From contig NZ_CP018799.1 in assembly GCF_002795805.1 (NCBI RefSeq), positions 1,109,001 to 1,173,000 of the forward strand: a stretch of DNA of 64,000 nt, written 5' to 3'. The first letter of the stretch is position 1. Each line of letters opens with the position of its first letter. The notes beneath the pieces were generated by a model, which saw only the letters and a list, made by a program, of their open reading frames with translations, was not told the origin of the DNA and searched no databases. The DNA is from Mariprofundus aestuarium. GTDB lineage: Bacteria; Pseudomonadota; Zetaproteobacteria; Mariprofundales; Mariprofundaceae. A program made the translations under genes and the position numbers. This document shows positions 6,878-18,590 of this stretch, one piece after another.

Positions 6878-7497
6878 TGAGTAATCCGGGAGTGCAAGAT
6901 TCAGCAGTCATTTTGATTGGTTTTCAAAATGATTATTTTTCTTCAGACGGTATTCTACGTGGGGTTATTGAGGAGTCAGCGGTTGCGAATAATGTGTTGA
7001 ATCATACCCTGAAGTTCATCAAAACAGTGATAGATAGTGGCTTGCCGATAGTGCATACCCCTATCCGGTTTACCACCGAATATCGTGAGCTGGATAATCC
7101 CGTTGGCATTCTTGCGGCCATAAAGGAGAGCAAAGCGTTTCAGGCTGGAATGCCCGGGGCCGAGACGATTAATGAGATCAAGGCGTTCGGAGATCGGATT
7201 GTCGAGATTCCGGGGAAGCGGGGCTTGAATGCCTTTTCCAATACGGAGCTGGATCTTTTCCTGAGAAACAGAGAGGTGCGAAATATCATTCTTGCCGGCG
7301 CGGTTACTTCAGTCTGTATAGACTCAACTGGCAGGGCTGCTTTTGAAAAGGGTTATGATGTATTTGTTCTCGAGGATTGTACCTGTGGGCGTACCAATTT
7401 TGAGCAGAAGTTCTATTGCGATGAGGTCTTTCCAATTTACGCGCAGGTGATCAGCAGCGGGGTGTTATCCGAACAGTTGTTGAGTTCGGCTGCCTGA
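6877..7497 (+). CDS. Isochorismatase-family cysteine hydrolase
   Basis: 206 residues with the family triad D19 (QNDY), K114 (GKRG) and C147 (VTSVCID), in the Rossmann-like fold shared by nicotinamidases, isochorismatases and related amidases. The substrate cannot be deduced. The ATG overlaps the kinase stop by one base (TAATG), so it is co-translated with the sensor kinase and HTH-receiver gene. This may mean that its product or substrate is linked to the signal. It is cytosolic, with no signal peptide. A small hairpin follows at 7514. Confidence 0.85.
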   Translation: MSNPGVQDSAVILIGFQNDYFSSDGILRGVIEESAVANNVLNHTLKFIKTVIDSGLPIVHTPIRFTTEYRELDNPVGILAAIKESKAFQAGMPGAETINEIKAFGDRIVEIPGKRGLNAFSNTELDLFLRNREVRNIILAGAVTSVCIDSTGRAAFEKGYDVFVLEDCTCGRTNFEQKFYCDEVFPIYAQVISSGVLSEQLLSSAA

Positions 7498-10439: not shown

Positions 10440-10492
10440 TCACTTAAATGCCTTCAAATTAGATGGATTAGATTCCCTTCGAGCTTATTGGG

Positions 10493-10738
10493 AAGGTACT
10501 TTGGGGGAGATTCGTTGTCTAGTACACTTGATGGATAAGCCATATCTCAAAACATACCGTATATGGCGAGGCCCCTCTGATTTATCCAACGCCAGGAAGT
10601 ATTTCTATGGATGTGAAGGCACTTTGGGGGAGATTCATTGTCTAGTACACTTGATAGATAAGCCTATCTCAAAACATACTATATATGGCGAGGTTTCTCT
10701 GATTTATCCAACGCTAGGAAGTAGTTCTATGGATGGAA
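10493..10738. repeat. Tandem duplication of a 123-base unit
   Basis: Two adjacent copies (10493-10615 and 10616-10738) share most positions, for example TTTGGGGGAGATTC at 10500-10513 and 10623-10636, and CTCTGATTTATCCAACG in both. Small indels break the reading frame between copies, so a 165-residue open frame across them is unlikely to be a gene. The unit lies upstream of the 962-residue kinase and at the left edge of the mobile element. Its function is not recognisable. Confidence 0.75.
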
Positions 10739-10887
10739 AAGAGCACCTTCGACATACTTCAAATTCCTTATTGATATTGATGGTTTTCAATCTTCAATAT
10801 TTGTTGGTACATATGCTTTTCTTACGAATTACTTGTGTCGAATTTCAGGACTCCCTTATAATTAGGCCCCTCTGGCCAGAAGAGCGC

Positions 10888-10940
10888 GCTTAGGCGTTTC
10901 TCTGTCGAGAAACGCTCGCTTGCGTCAGGGGATGACCCCT
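10888..10940. other. Putative origin of transfer (IncQ/MobQ-type oriT)
   Basis: GCGTTTCTC (10894-10902) and GAGAAACGC (10907-10915) form a perfect inverted repeat with a 4-base loop, followed by a CTTGCGTCA stretch. Known IncQ oriTs (RSF1010/R1162) have an inverted repeat with arms GTTTCTC and GAGAAAC followed by a TGCG-containing nick region, so the match is specific. A further small repeat, AGGGG and CCCCT, lies at 10927-10940. The nearby relaxase is a MobA homologue, which supports the call. The exact nick base is inferred, not shown. Confidence 0.75.
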
Positions 10941-11122
10941 GAACCCCATTACCCACGATAGTTCAGAATACTCATTTCCTCTTTTGCTCTGCCAACTCTC
11001 ATCTGGCTGGCGAACATTATCTGAATTCATTTCTCATTTTTCGTTGTGAAATATGAATATTCTTGGCATCGCTTGCTTATTTTTTCTGCTATATCGTATA
11101 ATTACCCGCTGATTTATTGATT

Positions 11123-11219: not shown

Positions 11220-12599
11220 ATGTCTGAATTTCATCTGTCGCTCAATATCGGAGCAAAAGGCAAGGCCGGCCCACACTTTCATTATATCAGTGCGTCGGAG
11301 AAATATGCGAAGAAGCACGGTGTTGTTCATATTGAGAGTGGTAACATGCCGATTTGGGCAACGGCAGAGCCAGCTCTGTTCTGGGAAGCATCTGATAAGT
11401 TTGAGAGAGCTAACGGCACGACATACCGAGAATTGGAAGTTGCCCTTCCCAGAGAGTTGCCATTCTCAATACAGCTCGACCTTGCCCGTCAGCTTGCTGA
11501 AGAGGTGTGCGACACTCGACACGCCTACAGCTTTGCTATCCATCACACCAAGGCCAGTGATGGCGGCTTGAATCCACATGTGCACCTGCAATTCTCCGAA
11601 CGCATTCAGGACGGCATTGAGCGTGATGCGGCCACATTCTTCAAGCGGGCAAATAAAGCAGCTCCCGAAAAAGGGGGATGCGTCAAAGACAGAAGCTGGC
11701 AAGCCAGCAAGCGAGGGAAGCAGAAACATGCTGAATCCAGCACTCGCCTACTGGAAATCAGAGAACAGTGGGCAGATATGTGTAATCAGGCACTTTCCTC
11801 GCATGGCTCAGATGCCCGAGTTGACCACCGTAGTAATGTAGCCCGAGGTATTTATCTGCTTCCACAACCTAAAGTAGGGGCGAAATCGTGGCATTTGCAA
11901 AGGCGAACTGAAAAACGGGAGCTCGACCCAGTCACCAATAAAATGGGCCCTATGCCATTTACTGGAGTTAAAAATGAGAGGTTTAAACATTGGGAAGAAG
12001 TAATTTCCTGTAACAAGGCTATTATAGCTGAGCAATCAAATCATGCCCCAGAAATACAGCGACGTTTGGCTGATGCTGAACGAGAACTGGCTGCTTTGGT
12101 ACCTATAAATCGTCCTGACAGACAAGAAATCTTGCGAAATATCGCCGAAGGTCAACAGTCTGCTCGCCGACTTGCGCAAGAGATATGGAAACTTGAACAT
12201 GTCACTCGCCGTTCAATTTATAATTCCATGATGCGAGTCAAACAGAAGTATGATGCTGGTGGAAATTGGCTGGTACGTGCCTTCAACCAATTCCGCCACC
12301 GCAGCACTCTGAATCAACTTAAGAAAAAGCATGATGCAGTTTTATTCGCCAAGTCCTCGAAAATAAAAAAACGAGAGCGATTCATAGAGCGCCTTTGCCT
12401 GCACCCTTATGCCATTAAGGAAGCCTCTGAAATGTACACAAAACAAGCAGTGCAACATAGTAACTACCTAGCCAGCAAAAGAGACCTAGAGCTGGAAATT
12501 GAGTCAATTAAGGCTTCACTTTCATGCCAGAAGTCAACATCGCAGCCATTGGTTTATCACTGCATTAGGCCTATTGGCTCCAATTCTGTCATTAACTAA
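11220..12599 (+). CDS. mobA: MobA/MobL-family relaxase
   Basis: 459 residues. The first 260 match the IncQ plasmid MobA relaxase: a candidate catalytic tyrosine Y22 in HFHYISASEKY, the ESGNMP and FERANG motifs, ALPREL, metal-binding histidines H120/H122 in NPHVHLQFSERI, and EKGG. It should nick the oriT and lead single-stranded DNA transfer. The C-terminal part (about 270-450) is rich in charged helices, probably coiled coil, and lacks the primase domain of RSF1010 MobA. A GGAG lies before the ATG. The oriT-like hairpin lies 300 bases upstream; accessory MobB/MobC genes are not visible. The product acts in the cytoplasm and needs a type IV secretion helper. Confidence 0.9.
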   Translation: MSEFHLSLNIGAKGKAGPHFHYISASEKYAKKHGVVHIESGNMPIWATAEPALFWEASDKFERANGTTYRELEVALPRELPFSIQLDLARQLAEEVCDTRHAYSFAIHHTKASDGGLNPHVHLQFSERIQDGIERDAATFFKRANKAAPEKGGCVKDRSWQASKRGKQKHAESSTRLLEIREQWADMCNQALSSHGSDARVDHRSNVARGIYLLPQPKVGAKSWHLQRRTEKRELDPVTNKMGPMPFTGVKNERFKHWEEVISCNKAIIAEQSNHAPEIQRRLADAERELAALVPINRPDRQEILRNIAEGQQSARRLAQEIWKLEHVTRRSIYNSMMRVKQKYDAGGNWLVRAFNQFRHRSTLNQLKKKHDAVLFAKSSKIKKRERFIERLCLHPYAIKEASEMYTKQAVQHSNYLASKRDLELEIESIKASLSCQKSTSQPLVYHCIRPIGSNSVIN

Positions 12600-12843: not shown

Positions 12844-13170
12844 TTATCCATCAAGACCATCTACCCAGTCTGAAAAATCTACATCAAGCCAGGCATCAGA
12901 ATCAGCGAAATTCTCAGAGAGTTTCAGATGTGCTTCATGTAAGTCGCTTCGTGCTCTTTCTAATCGAGCCTCCATGATAGGGTCAACCAAATCTATAAGG
13001 GCAAGCTCAATCATTACTATAACATTTTCGATGCCTTCGATAACAGTCGTATTATCAGCCTGCACTTGCATATAGTCCTGATCTAGAAAACCTCTTTTTT
13101 TGCTTGGGTCATCATAAAGTTCTTCTGCTAATGGCTCCATTACATCTTCAACAGTTAAATTCAAACTCAT
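12844..13170 (-). CDS. Small acidic protein of the mobile element (108 aa)
   Basis: No family recognised. The ATG at 13170 has a strong AGGAG eight bases upstream, which decides the start over a longer open frame reaching 13377. The protein is strongly acidic and helical, with a hydrophobic middle (VIVMIELALIDLV) and a Trp/Asp-rich tail (WLDVDFSDWVDG). It is the third gene of a minus-strand unit after the AAA+ ATPase and the phosphoesterase, but it is separated from the latter by a 157-base gap with a large hairpin. Such an acidic partner could be an adaptor or inhibitor; that is speculation. Confidence 0.7.
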   Translation of the reverse strand: MSLNLTVEDVMEPLAEELYDDPSKKRGFLDQDYMQVQADNTTVIEGIENVIVMIELALIDLVDPIMEARLERARSDLHEAHLKLSENFADSDAWLDVDFSDWVDGLDG

Positions 13171-13218
13171 GCTTTTACTCCTGATATGCTCTACACCCAC
13201 CACTGAACGGGCAGGTAT

Positions 13219-13288
13219 CCTGCCGCTCTGCAAACCCGCGCATCGCCCTTGCTGGTGAAGGCGATGCGCGGCTCCGCAGAACGGCAGG
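13219..13288. repeat. Nested long inverted repeat
   Basis: An inner stem CCGCGCATCGCC (13236-13247) pairs perfectly with GGCGATGCGCGG (13260-13271). An outer stem CCTGCCG-CTCTGC (13219-13231) pairs with GCAGAACGGCAGG (13276-13288) with mismatches. It lies between the phosphoesterase stop and the small acidic gene. It may be a terminator, an mRNA-processing site or a protein-binding site. A further CCGCA/TGCGG repeat sits just beyond, near 13312-13326. Confidence 0.65.
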
Positions 13289-13327
13289 TTTAATCGCACT
13301 GTTTTACAAAATCCGCAATTCATGCGG

Positions 13328-14068
13328 TTAAACCTCAACAACCAGCATTGAATCAAATGCTGGATTCTCCCAGCCACCCAGTGGGAGAGGATATCCTCTG
13401 GGGTTGCATATCACTCTTGTTGAGCCGAGTTGGTAATCAAAACTGCTATGTGTGTGGCCATGCACCCAGAGATTGACCCCCGGCATTAGTGACTGCAAAT
13501 TACTCATGAAACAAGGGTTCCAGGGGTTGCCGACATACTGAGGGTGTAAACTCTTCAGGCTGGGAGCATGATGTGTCACTACTACTGTTTTGCCTTGAAA
13601 TGGTTTGCTCAACTCGGTGCACAACCATTTTAGATTACGATCAAACCGCATCTGTTGTTGCTCAACTGAGAAATGAATCGGTGCTCTACCGTGCTCATGC
13701 TCAACGACAATATTGTCGTAGTCACAATAAAGAACCGCCCCAAAGTTACTCAAATCCGTCCACATGGTGCTGCCCAAAAAACGAACGCCTCCAATCACTG
13801 TGGTCTCGTTATCCAACAGAATTACATTCGATCCTGCAGTAGCATTCCTCATGGCTTCCATATGCCCTGCCATTGAAAAACTGGGATCGTGATATTCGTG
13901 GTTGCCGGAGACATAAATCACCGGTGATTGAAAAGTATCTCTGGCCCATAAAATCCCTTCAGCACTTTCTGAGATATCACCAGCCAATATCACGACATCC
14001 GCACTCCCTTGGATTACATGACAGGGAGCATGCTCAATATGAAGGTCAGATAAAATTTGCAGCCTCAT
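13328..14068 (-). CDS. Calcineurin-like metallophosphoesterase
   Basis: 246 residues carrying all metal-ligand motifs of the family: D8-L-H10, G30-D31, G-N56-H57-E58, THHAPS and HGHTHS near the end. Two divalent metals and hydrolysis of a phosphoester are expected; the substrate (nucleotide, nucleic acid or protein phosphate) is unknown. The ATG at 14068 overlaps the stop of the AAA+ gene by one base (TGATG), so the two are almost certainly translated together and may act as one complex. It is cytosolic, without a signal peptide. The pairing with a AAA+ ATPase inside a mobile element recalls host-conflict modules, but no known system is matched with confidence. Confidence 0.88.
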   Translation of the reverse strand: MRLQILSDLHIEHAPCHVIQGSADVVILAGDISESAEGILWARDTFQSPVIYVSGNHEYHDPSFSMAGHMEAMRNATAGSNVILLDNETTVIGGVRFLGSTMWTDLSNFGAVLYCDYDNIVVEHEHGRAPIHFSVEQQQMRFDRNLKWLCTELSKPFQGKTVVVTHHAPSLKSLHPQYVGNPWNPCFMSNLQSLMPGVNLWVHGHTHSSFDYQLGSTRVICNPRGYPLPLGGWENPAFDSMLVVEV

Positions 14069-15282
14069 CAATGGATGAACCCGATTTTCCGGCTATTCGT
14101 TTGATCCTGATTATCCACTGGCACATCTTCCGGCGTAAGCAACAGCGGTGCAGGTGAGTGATCAGCTCGAATGGAAGCATGGGCCATGGCACTTTCAAGC
14201 TGCGCCTTGAGCCGCCTAATAGACAGGTCACTCTGTAGCATTTTCTCAATCACCTCCGATGGCAATTTGTTGGAAAAGACATCCTGTAGGCCATGGTTGT
14301 CCACTTGCTGTTCATAGATTTGTGGCAGAATCTGGCGTAGTTCATCCTTGCTTGGCGGATTGACCGAGATCACTTCGAAGCGATCTCGAATTGGTGCACT
14401 GAGTGAAGATATTTCATTTGCGCTGGCAAACCAGTTGATTCGACTGGCATCAATGGAGACGGCAACAAACTCATCCTTGAATTCACGAGCATTGTTTTTC
14501 TCCAATAAGGTATACAGAGCTGAGACGAACAAGTGTGAGCCTTCAGACTGGCTCTTATCCACCTCATCAAGCAATATGATCGGGTTTGCGCACCCCTGTT
14601 GTACCAGTTCATCGAAGATCATGCCTGGATGGCCGGTACTCCAGCCGACTGATAAACCTGTAAGATCACCCGCCATCGACATTGATGCACATGAGATAGA
14701 AGAGAATCTTGTATCGAGTGATTCTCCCAATTCATACAGGAAAGAGCTCTTACCACACCCCGGTGCTCCAAGCAGCAGAATGTTCGCCCCAAAATCGACA
14801 ACAGGATATTTCTTCAAGGCGTTCAATCGCATACGGGCACGCAGTGTTTCTATCACAGCATGGAAATGTGGGTAGCGCTTGCTGAGTCCATCGAGAATGT
14901 CATTGTAATTTTTCGGTTGGGGAGTCAATGCTCGCCAAGACTGAGCAGCACGCATACGGTGCAGAACTGATCTCAGTAGCTCCATATCTTTTTGTCGCTC
15001 TGCAAACTTTGATCGCTCAGAAACTTCTGAAAGACTGTACATATCCAACATGTACGCACGCGCTTCCTTAGTAGCTTCATCCTGTGCTGACTTGAGCTCA
15101 TTAAATCGTCTTTTAATGTTACGCTCCTGCTCTGGCGTCATGGGGGAAAACGGATCAAAAGAAGAATCGTTAGTAGCTTGATCTTCTTTAGAGGGGGGCG
15201 AATGTATCTCATCATCCGAGATGATCTCGATCGGATATGTATCTGATATATTTTGCTTATGTGCTTCCAGCTTACAGTCCAT
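14068..15282 (-). CDS. Lon-like AAA+ ATPase without protease domain
   Basis: 404 residues from the ATG at 15282, chosen because a perfect AGGAGG lies just upstream; a longer frame to 15351 lacks this. The N-terminal 150 residues are charged and helical. The AAA+ core has Walker A GAPGCGKS (about 172-179), Walker B ILLDEVDK (about 236-243), a sensor-1 region (FASANE), an arginine-finger-like RDRFE and a C-terminal lid. The core resembles the ATPase of Lon, but no Ser-Lys protease domain follows. It probably remodels a protein or nucleoprotein. It is first in the unit with the phosphoesterase and the acidic protein and is preceded by a 535-base gap with repeated palindromes. Confidence 0.85.
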   Translation of the reverse strand: MDCKLEAHKQNISDTYPIEIISDDEIHSPPSKEDQATNDSSFDPFSPMTPEQERNIKRRFNELKSAQDEATKEARAYMLDMYSLSEVSERSKFAERQKDMELLRSVLHRMRAAQSWRALTPQPKNYNDILDGLSKRYPHFHAVIETLRARMRLNALKKYPVVDFGANILLLGAPGCGKSSFLYELGESLDTRFSSISCASMSMAGDLTGLSVGWSTGHPGMIFDELVQQGCANPIILLDEVDKSQSEGSHLFVSALYTLLEKNNAREFKDEFVAVSIDASRINWFASANEISSLSAPIRDRFEVISVNPPSKDELRQILPQIYEQQVDNHGLQDVFSNKLPSEVIEKMLQSDLSIRRLKAQLESAMAHASIRADHSPAPLLLTPEDVPVDNQDQTNSRKIGFIH

Positions 15283-15817: not shown

Positions 15818-17446
15818 CTATTGATCTTGCATTGATTGAACGTGAAGAAGTTTCTCTTTCAATCCCTTCAAGCCAAGGTTGGCAATCTCAGCTCTGGCTA
15901 GCAGTGCCAGCTCAGTTCTTTGCGCTTCGGTGATCACCACACCGGCTTCGCCGGTGCCGGTGATTTCATAGATAACCCCAAGATCAAAAAAGTGCAGCAC
16001 CAGACCAGCTTCCCGCATAGTGCTATTGATATGGGCGCGGAGTTGATACAGTTCATCGGCGGGCAACTTACTGAACCTGAGATCAAAGATTGCACTGGAT
16101 AGGCGATCAACCTTCTCCTGCACTGGAGAGAAAATTTTCAGTTCCGCCTCTTTCTCATCAATTTCCTGCTGGATTTCATCGGCTTGATGCATAGCCTTGG
16201 TGTACCTCGCCCGAGCATCGGCAAACATAGAGCCTTCGGCAGTTGCCACCAATTCACCAAATCTCTCAACCTGTTTCATGCACTCGGCAAGTTTTCCGCT
16301 CAGAGACTTGATCTCAGATTCCAGCTTTTGGCGACTGGAAACATGGCCGCCAAGGGCTGAATACCAATCCACCTTTTCACTGAGCGCGACAAGGGCAGCA
16401 TCCTCAACTTCACGGTATGGCCAACGCTTGGTGCAGTCACAGCCGCTGGCCATATAGTTGCTGTTACAGCGAAACTGATGCGTATGCCCATTCTTGATCA
16501 TTCGGAAAGTTGAACCACAAGACATACACTTACACATGCCGGTAAACAGGTTGCTGTAGCTTTCACCCTTCCTCCCTGCCGACGATGAATCGGTGCGCCT
16601 CTGCTTCTGGGCTGCCTTGGCCTTGTAATAAAGCTCTTCAGATATGATAGGCGGATAGTAATCAGGAATAGGATCACCAATCTGTTCTTTATCCTTCATT
16701 GGCTGAAATTCGCCTAGAACCACTTTGCTGTTCAGTACCTTGCGGATATAGGAGGCATGCCACATGTCGCCCCTGGCAAAAGGCTTAATGCCTTCCTTGT
16801 TGAATTGCTCTGCAATCTTGCGCTGGCCGGTTCCGGCAATGCTCATATCAAAGATGCGTCGGATTATCGAAGCTCTTTCTTCGATCACCTCGAATCGCTG
16901 CCTGTCTTCCGACACCGCCAACCATTTTGGACATTGCTTCGTCATGGGCTTGCCTGACTCGACAGCATTCTGGCGCTTGTTTTCCCATGAGGCAGAGAGT
17001 CTCTTTGATTTCATTGCCGATTCTTCATGGGAGCGGGAAAGCGACATCAGCGAATACATCAGTTGACCGACCTCATTGATGGAGTCGGCAGTGTAATGTT
17101 GGCCATCGGCAAGGGTAACAATCTCGACTCCTGCCGAGAGAATGGATGAAAATAATCCGAGGGCTGCAAATACCTGCTGCCGTGAAAGTCTGTCCAGACT
17201 CTCAAGAATCAGAATCGAGCCTTTCTCAATGCGTCCAGCCTCGACCAATTCAATGAAACGCCTAAGTGCCCCTTCGGTGGCGTTCTTACCTTTGAACGCC
17301 GACACGCCAATATCCCGAAGTGACTCATCCAGCACTAGATTATATTGTTTCGCATAGGCACGGCTTGCCTCCAACTGTCTTCGCAAACTATCCCCCTTCA
17401 ACTGTTGCGGGGTGGAAAATCGAACATATGAATAGGCTTTCTGCAT
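15818..17446 (-). CDS. Large serine recombinase (integrase of the element)
   Basis: 542 residues. An N-terminal resolvase domain (about 3-150) has catalytic S11 in YVRFSTPQQ and the conserved arginines (LRRQ, DRLSR). A recombinase domain (about 165-280), a zinc-ribbon region with a CxxC pair and later cysteines (about 310-345) and a coiled coil (about 370-450) follow, the order found in large serine integrases such as phiC31-type enzymes. It should join attP and attB without a long homology. Its start lies 67 bases from the right edge of the element, the usual position beside an att site. No excision factor is recognisable. Confidence 0.92.
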   Translation of the reverse strand: MQKAYSYVRFSTPQQLKGDSLRRQLEASRAYAKQYNLVLDESLRDIGVSAFKGKNATEGALRRFIELVEAGRIEKGSILILESLDRLSRQQVFAALGLFSSILSAGVEIVTLADGQHYTADSINEVGQLMYSLMSLSRSHEESAMKSKRLSASWENKRQNAVESGKPMTKQCPKWLAVSEDRQRFEVIEERASIIRRIFDMSIAGTGQRKIAEQFNKEGIKPFARGDMWHASYIRKVLNSKVVLGEFQPMKDKEQIGDPIPDYYPPIISEELYYKAKAAQKQRRTDSSSAGRKGESYSNLFTGMCKCMSCGSTFRMIKNGHTHQFRCNSNYMASGCDCTKRWPYREVEDAALVALSEKVDWYSALGGHVSSRQKLESEIKSLSGKLAECMKQVERFGELVATAEGSMFADARARYTKAMHQADEIQQEIDEKEAELKIFSPVQEKVDRLSSAIFDLRFSKLPADELYQLRAHINSTMREAGLVLHFFDLGVIYEITGTGEAGVVITEAQRTELALLARAEIANLGLKGLKEKLLHVQSMQDQ

Positions 17447-17513: not shown

Positions 17514-18590
17514 AACAACAAGCTGGCGGGTATGACAGGCAACCTTTATCTGGCTAAGAGAAAAGCTGCAGCGCTCCCCGATGTGGTGAGTAACCTGGAG
17601 GTGGTGGAGACACTGAGTTTCCGAGCTGCAGAGATCATTAAACACCTGTTGGTTTTTGCCCGCAGGGATATCGTTCAGAAGGAACCTTTCGGGCTGGTTT
17701 CATATATTAAGGAGATCACCAAGCTTAATAGAGCAGCAATTCCTTCAAGTATCACTTTCAATCAACAGTTCTGTGAGCAGGAACTGGTAATCAATGGAGA
17801 TGCCCCACAGTTGCAGCAGGTTTTATTAAACCTTTTGAGCAATGCACGTGATGCGGTTGCTATGGTTGAAGAGCCTGAGATCAGACTGACAGTGGAACTA
17901 TTCAGTGCCGATGCCGCTTTTTCAGAGCAGTACCCTGATCAGGAGGCGAAAGCCTTTGCTCACCTCATAGTAGAAGATAACGGTTGCGGTATTAGCAACG
18001 AAGCTAGAACTCATATTTTTGAACCTTTCTTCACAACCAAGAAGGTAGGAGTAGGTACAGGCCTGGGGCTGGCGATGGCCTATGGGGCCATTCAGCAGCA
18101 TGACGGAATGATTGAGGTTGATAACAATACCGGGCCGGGGGTTTCAGTTCACATCTATCTGCCAATTGTTGCCGAGGAAGCCTCACCTATAGATGAGAAG
18201 CCAGAGCCCGTAGCCGCAGGGAAAGGGGAGACGATCCTTATCGCAGATGATGATGCTGATGTCCGATCTGCCTCGAAAAAAGTTCTGGAAAGCCTGGGTT
18301 ATAAGGTGCTGGAGGCTGTAGACGGAATTGACGCTTTTGATAAGTTCAATGAAAATTGTGAGGCCATCTCCCTGATCATCATGGATATAGTGATGCCAAG
18401 GCTTAGTGGAGTGAAAGTTGCTGAGCGGATAAGGGCTGCTCATCCAGAGGTGAAAATCATTTTCGCATCAGGCTATGACCGTGATGAACTTAACAAGGGG
18501 GCGATGCCTCCGGCTGAATATATTATCCTGAGCAAACCCTACCCGGTTGAGGCGGTTAACAGCCTGATTCGAGAGCTGCTGGACTCCTGA
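17514..18590 (+). pseudogene. 3' remnant of a hybrid histidine kinase, cut at the H-box
   Basis: In-frame coding starts at 17514 with NNKLAGMTGN; an ATG at 17532 could start a 352-residue protein. It keeps the second half of HisKA, an HATPase_c domain (NLLSNARDAV, DNGCGI, GTGLGLAMAYG) and a receiver (IADDDADVR, IIMDIVMPRLSG, SKPYP). It lacks the phospho-acceptor histidine and all sensor domains. The sequence closely follows the kinase at 45000-47297 (GMTGNLYLAK shared). The break coincides with the right end of the mobile element, so insertion or a linked deletion destroyed the gene. A residual phosphatase or receiver role is possible but unproven. Confidence 0.85.

Follow-up and report, generated by a model that had tools for sequence, protein, structure and literature searches.

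The window analysed here, a stretch of 64 000 nucleotides from the complete 2.54 Mb genome of the iron-oxidising marine zetaproteobacterium Mariprofundus aestuarium, carries two adjacent genes, encoding a Lon-type AAA+ ATPase without a protease domain and a predicted calcineurin-like metallophosphoesterase (MPE), that constitute a real, recurring and unnamed two-gene module. None of the profile libraries searched names this pair and no publication describing such a pair was found (subscription literature lay outside the search), in agreement with the initial annotation, which knew of no named system of this kind. Our preferred reading, which ranks as the most likely of several and to which we give slightly less than an even chance, is that the pair would serve in host conflict, probably against invaders, as an exchangeable module that travels as cargo on an integrative mobilizable element.

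The AAA+ gene (positions 14068–15282 of the window, minus strand; 404 amino acids; assigned from Pfam, NCBIfam and the predicted structure) starts with an ATG at 15282 with AGGAGG in front and stops with a TGA at 14070–14068. The MPE gene (13328–14068, minus strand; 246 amino acids; assigned from Pfam, the predicted structure and conserved ligands) starts with an ATG at 14068, giving a one-base overlap with this TGA, and its last codon ends at 13331 and its stop at 13328; an alternative TTG start at 14071 would give a four-base overlap. Further downstream lies an orphan open reading frame (ORF) for an acidic protein of 108 amino acids (12844–13170, minus strand), with an ATG at 13170, a ribosome-binding site (AGGAG) in front and a stop ending at 12844. 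All three ORFs, with the one-base overlap, had been placed in this part of the window by the initial annotation and were confirmed there on the minus strand, as was its description of the Walker motifs and phosphoesterase metal ligands as intact.

The AAA+ protein matched the Pfam AAA family (E = 1e-12) and, more strongly, the NCBIfam Lon model TIGR00763 (E = 2.4e-26), over profile positions 353–560 of 795, i.e. the Lon ATPase region only. Walker A, Walker B, sensor 1, the arginine finger and sensor 2 are all kept. Its structure model (mean pLDDT 84) is matched by Lon structures across the helical and AAA+ parts (TM about 0.65 with the LONP1 fold) and stops where the Lon protease domain would start; the C-terminal Ser/Lys protease domain is absent, and the protein has 404 amino acids versus about 800 for Lon. 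The partial profile match and the fold match together bear out the earlier designation of a Lon-like ATPase without protease. In the alignment, residue W214 stands opposite the tyrosine in the TYIG pore loop of Lon, and W, F or Y occupies this position in 12 of 12 paired relatives. As the aromatic pore-loop residue is kept, the protein is probably an unfoldase that threads or remodels its substrate. It thus resembles Lon protease (LonA), its best fold match, in the helical and AAA+ modules, the Walker motifs, the sensors and the aromatic pore loop, but differs in having neither the N-domain nor the protease domain and in being followed by a separate MPE gene.

The second protein matched Pfam Metallophos_2 (E = 5.5e-10) and contains the metal-ligand motifs DxH, GD, GNH, H and GHxH, with every ligand invariant in 26 relatives, which by sequence assigns it to the calcineurin-like metallophosphoesterase family. 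Among PDB structures, its model (pLDDT 94.7) comes closest to PptH, a phosphopantetheinyl hydrolase from Mycobacterium (6unc; TM 0.64, 20% identity), which is also the sole PDB sequence match (E = 0.0018). Behind PptH, the cyclic-nucleotide phosphodiesterase Rv0805, MPPED2, Dbr1 and Mre11 match as well, and the fold therefore leaves the substrate class unfixed. The protein falls in the phage family phrog_1649 (E = 4.7e-47), with relatives in 152 phage records. These phage metallo-phosphoesterases belong to the same subfamily but are phage-borne, and none of the phage AAA+ matches was of the short paired form; the AAA-centred viral scan returned mostly full-length Lon genes. The PADLOC candidate PDC-S10 also matched the N-terminal half of the MPE (7e-11), but this is a half-length superfamily match only and PDC-S10 is no AAA+ pair.

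A second AAA+/MPE pair is encoded in the same genome, its aligned AAA+ and MPE proteins being 54% and 58% identical, respectively, to those of the window. It follows a complete type III restriction-modification (R-M) system, from which three ORFs separate it. Across 74 genomes of the family we found ten AAA+ loci, about thirteen MPE loci and eight adjacent pairs, the latter distributed over six genomes. The MPE gene hence adjoins the AAA+ gene in eight of the ten AAA+ loci, the chance of which is ~1e-18 if loci are assumed independent, shared descent lowering the number of independent events. Gene order and strand are identical in all eight pairs, seven of which are spaced by 0–560 bp and one by 710 bp with a second MPE gene between. 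Pairs recur outside the family, among betaproteobacteria: one Rhodocyclaceae genome has a pair with Wadjet next to it, and further pairs come from Methylotenera and from a plasmid of Sphaerotilus. On Rhizobium plasmids, the same MPE subfamily is encoded directly 3' of an FtsH-type AAA+/M41 gene, in the gene order of the Lon-type pairs (NZ_CP125638, with a four-base overlap and CBASS adjoining; NZ_CP022999, by coordinates; and CP090109), and a Bosea plasmid likewise has an MPE gene close behind an FtsH-type AAA+/M41 gene. That Lon-type and FtsH-type unfoldases occupy the same position is the strongest indication that the two proteins are functionally linked.

Members of each family are also encoded without the other, in the case of the MPE widely. 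Among 80 genomic MPE relatives only 7 have this type of AAA+ gene nearby, as do 2 among 80 viral ones; stand-alone MPE relatives are common in Burkholderiales genomes, and some MPE genes of the zetaproteobacterial family are solitary among housekeeping genes. Relatives of the AAA+ gene occur elsewhere in the phylum sample without an MPE gene and, in other proteobacteria, alone among ordinary genes. The finding of homologues as unlinked housekeeping genes, which would speak against a dedicated unit, therefore applies in part, to many MPE and some AAA+ relatives, while the pair still recurs. It does so on mobile or defence-rich DNA, whereas the trio that the initial annotation had described as a three-gene unit does not: the acidic ORF had no Pfam match and no relatives in the Mariprofundus genomes or plasmids searched, and the third genes differ at other pair loci, on which grounds the three-gene unit was rejected. 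Genes for NIF/FCP1-type HAD phosphatases lie near the pair in L027, L028 and L044, those for HAD_SAK_2, a dual-specificity phosphatase (DSPc) and a cpYpsA SLOG protein in L285, L118 and L031, respectively, and a second MPE gene at L285, L104 and L035.

Several other neighbours were noted. A divergent HTH-type gene (~250–330 amino acids) stands next to the AAA+ gene in L005, L009, L101, L118, L295 and L296, and the one tested gave no Pfam match. In two Ghiorsea genomes (L029, 6538–8411; L030, 11421–13300) short methyltransferase (MTase) and S-subunit genes are divergent from the pair and an MkoC homologue is nearby, possibly as a four-gene arrangement. More distant Lon-type AAA+ genes in L300 and L303 lie near ORFs resembling Tn7-like TnsA/TnsB by eye. 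Two near-identical loci of genome G001 (L032 and L033) have an ORF resembling a DEDDh exonuclease (by eye, no Pfam match) followed by the AAA+ gene, without MPE, which suggests that the partner enzymes of this AAA+ family are exchangeable.

The acidic ORF had also been reported to stand behind a large hairpin, and RNA folding confirmed this structure (13185–13295, minus strand; stem arms 13219–13247 and 13260–13288; minimum free energy -91 kcal/mol, z = -8.7, with 0 of 200 shuffles equally stable). The hairpin is a dispersed element of ~110 nt, with the conserved sequence CTGCGGAGCC...TTTGCAG...GTGGTGRGYGTRGAGC, found 3' of unrelated genes on zetaproteobacterial mobile DNA, and its stem covaries among three copies. 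Besides that in the window, its locations include G000:C1:701370-701482, 6331–6445 of L312 and contigs of G059, and the family is also represented 3' of the paralogous AAA+/MPE pair. A covariance model detected a copy 3' of an IS256-type transposase gene in G013 and about seven copies within an ISL3-like terminal-inverted-repeat element in G059, and none at the other AAA+/MPE loci. On the grounds of this distribution, neither a dedicated role in regulating the acidic gene nor a link specific to the AAA+/MPE pair was accepted for the hairpin. Rfam holds no family for it (the E-value matches are chance matches to microRNA hairpins far under the gathering score), and inspection by eye for an integron attC site showed no matching core sites. 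The acidic protein and the hairpin are thus neighbours and not conserved parts of the module.

The element carrying the pair is located at ~10.8 to ~17.5 kb of the window, with the AAA+, MPE and acidic ORFs between the genes for a MobA/MobL (MobQ-like) relaxase (11220–12599, plus strand) and a large serine recombinase (15818–17446, minus strand), both identified by profile match. No type IV secretion genes were seen between these two, and the combination of an integrase and a relaxase without conjugation machinery of its own identifies an integrative mobilizable element. According to the initial annotation, these three ORFs are all that the element carries besides genes for its transfer and integration, which is correct save for some small unassigned ORFs. 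A putative oriT-like block with a GTTTCTC...GAGAAAC inverted repeat (10860–10950), assigned by inspection, lies next to the relaxase gene. Between it and a kinase gene, an imperfect tandem duplication of ~122 bp (10489–10735; 90–92% identity) was noticed. At the recombinase side, the element ends in an AACAAC junction (17514–17519) with what is left, at the 3' side, of a gene for a hybrid histidine kinase (17532–18590), the end falling within the H-box codons (HDFNN). Another Mariprofundus genome, G003, has a related element (in L027; recombinase 62% and relaxase 45% identical) that keeps the oriT-like block beside its relaxase gene and also ends in a kinase-gene H-box, near 6930 and in the opposite orientation. 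The other kinase half was looked for beyond the relaxase side of both elements and found at neither.

The G003 element also carries an AAA+/MPE pair, but the AAA+ tree and the MPE tree agree in placing the copy from the window as sister to the one on the chromosome of the same genome and not to that of the G003 element. The pair was for this reason rejected as part of the backbone of the element family and, judged from these trees, looks like exchangeable cargo. The AAA+ and MPE distance matrices were correlated across 12 loci (r = 0.70, p = 0.0008) but uncorrelated within the family (r about 0), and partners may therefore have been swapped in some cases.

Known defence genes were present within 6.5 kb of five of nine pair loci, comprising type III R-M, type I MTase and S genes, MkoC homologues, AbiEii and Wadjet; HipA was also noted among the neighbours of pairs. 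Control loci (eleven with a solo MPE gene and ten random regions) had fewer defence matches, but not zero, and in this small test the Fisher p-value was about 0.01–0.2 depending on how control matches are counted. An enrichment of pairs near defence genes is thus no more than suggestive, and the proposal that the genes are defence or host-conflict cargo stands as far as their location on mobile or defence-rich DNA is concerned, a defence function itself being plausible.

Named systems with a comparable logic were considered. RADAR combines the RdrA ATPase with the RdrB deaminase and thus shares the two-gene logic of an ATPase and an enzyme acting on nucleotides or nucleic acids, but the fold of its partner enzyme differs from that of the MPE, and the RdrA and RdrB models matched none of the AAA+, MPE and acidic proteins. 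The likeness to Dodola is a weak AAA match to DolB (3.1e-6) confined to the common AAA core, with no DolA match among the three proteins; that to IetAS is an IetA match (E = 0.0048) across 38 residues of the same core, with no protease gene (IetS) beside the AAA+ gene. BREX also pairs an AAA+ motor (BrxL, Lon-like/MCM) with a phosphatase-type enzyme (PglZ), together with the MTase PglX, and an MTase and an S subunit adjoin the pair, divergently, at the two Ghiorsea loci; however, BrxL is of the MCM type and PglZ of the alkaline-phosphatase type (PMC12839542). The defence profile search found no BrxL, PglZ, BrxC or PglX homologue among the three proteins. Membership in BREX, RADAR, IetAS or Dodola was rejected, as required components were unmatched in this search.

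In the mechanism that we propose, the AAA+ gene encodes the ring module of the Lon ATPase, lacking N-domain and protease, whose ATPase site is intact and whose pore loop keeps its aromatic residue, as sequence and predicted structure show. It may assemble into a hexamer that recognises, and threads or remodels, a protein or nucleoprotein associated with the invader, and so serve both as the sensor and as the motor. The co-translated MPE, whose co-occurrence with the AAA+ gene is described above, would replace the protease as partner enzyme and, recruited or activated by the ring, might cleave a phosphodiester bond, either in a nucleic acid or nucleotide or in a group attached to a protein, so that the invader or the infected cell would be stopped. 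The acidic protein and the hairpin would have no place in this core.

Several other functions can be envisaged. The pair might shield the element rather than the host, through removal of phosphate marks, repair of cleaved RNA or degradation of a host nucleotide alarm signal. Such a role in element maintenance or counter-defence would agree with the phrog_1649 match, with the abundance of MPE relatives in large phages and with the phosphatase or RNA-repair-type genes accompanying some pairs, but we consider it rather unlikely, given that the paralogous pair is chromosomal, beside the type III R-M system and with no relaxase or recombinase gene in the 19 kb read, and that the element family does not retain one pair lineage. 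A general stress or housekeeping pair, serving protein or RNA quality control and captured by the mobile element by chance, would fit the frequent stand-alone MPE relatives of Burkholderiales and the AAA+ relatives among ordinary proteobacterial genes. The restriction of the pair to 6 of 74 family genomes and the R-M, Mokosh-like, AbiE and HipA genes near several copies argue against this, and we regard it as unlikely.

The rank of PptH as both the best structural and the only sequence match in the PDB raises a further possibility, that the MPE removes a phosphopantetheinyl or other protein-linked phosphodiester from modified carrier proteins delivered by the AAA+ unfoldase. This appears highly improbable, since identity to PptH is low, Rv0805, MPPED2, Dbr1 and Mre11 match too, and no carrier-protein gene was noticed near the pair.

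Returning to the host-conflict reading, a broader and more doubtful extension, which we would place well below an even chance, is that the pair belongs to a hitherto undescribed type of defence that couples an AAA+ ring of the unfoldase type to an MPE acting in trans in place of a protease. This type would have originated at least twice (Lon-type and FtsH-type) and would be disseminated by mobilizable elements, plasmids and defence islands, which carry it as exchangeable cargo. Should the pair indeed serve defence, the known designs would gain one whose phosphoesterase is driven by a Lon ring lacking the protease, and the recurrence of one MPE subfamily directly behind two types of AAA+ unfoldase would be accounted for. 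The pair is a small unit (~2 kb), present as two natural copies in one genome and amenable to experiment, and it suggests what some members of a large and so far uncharacterised family of phage and plasmid MPEs may do.
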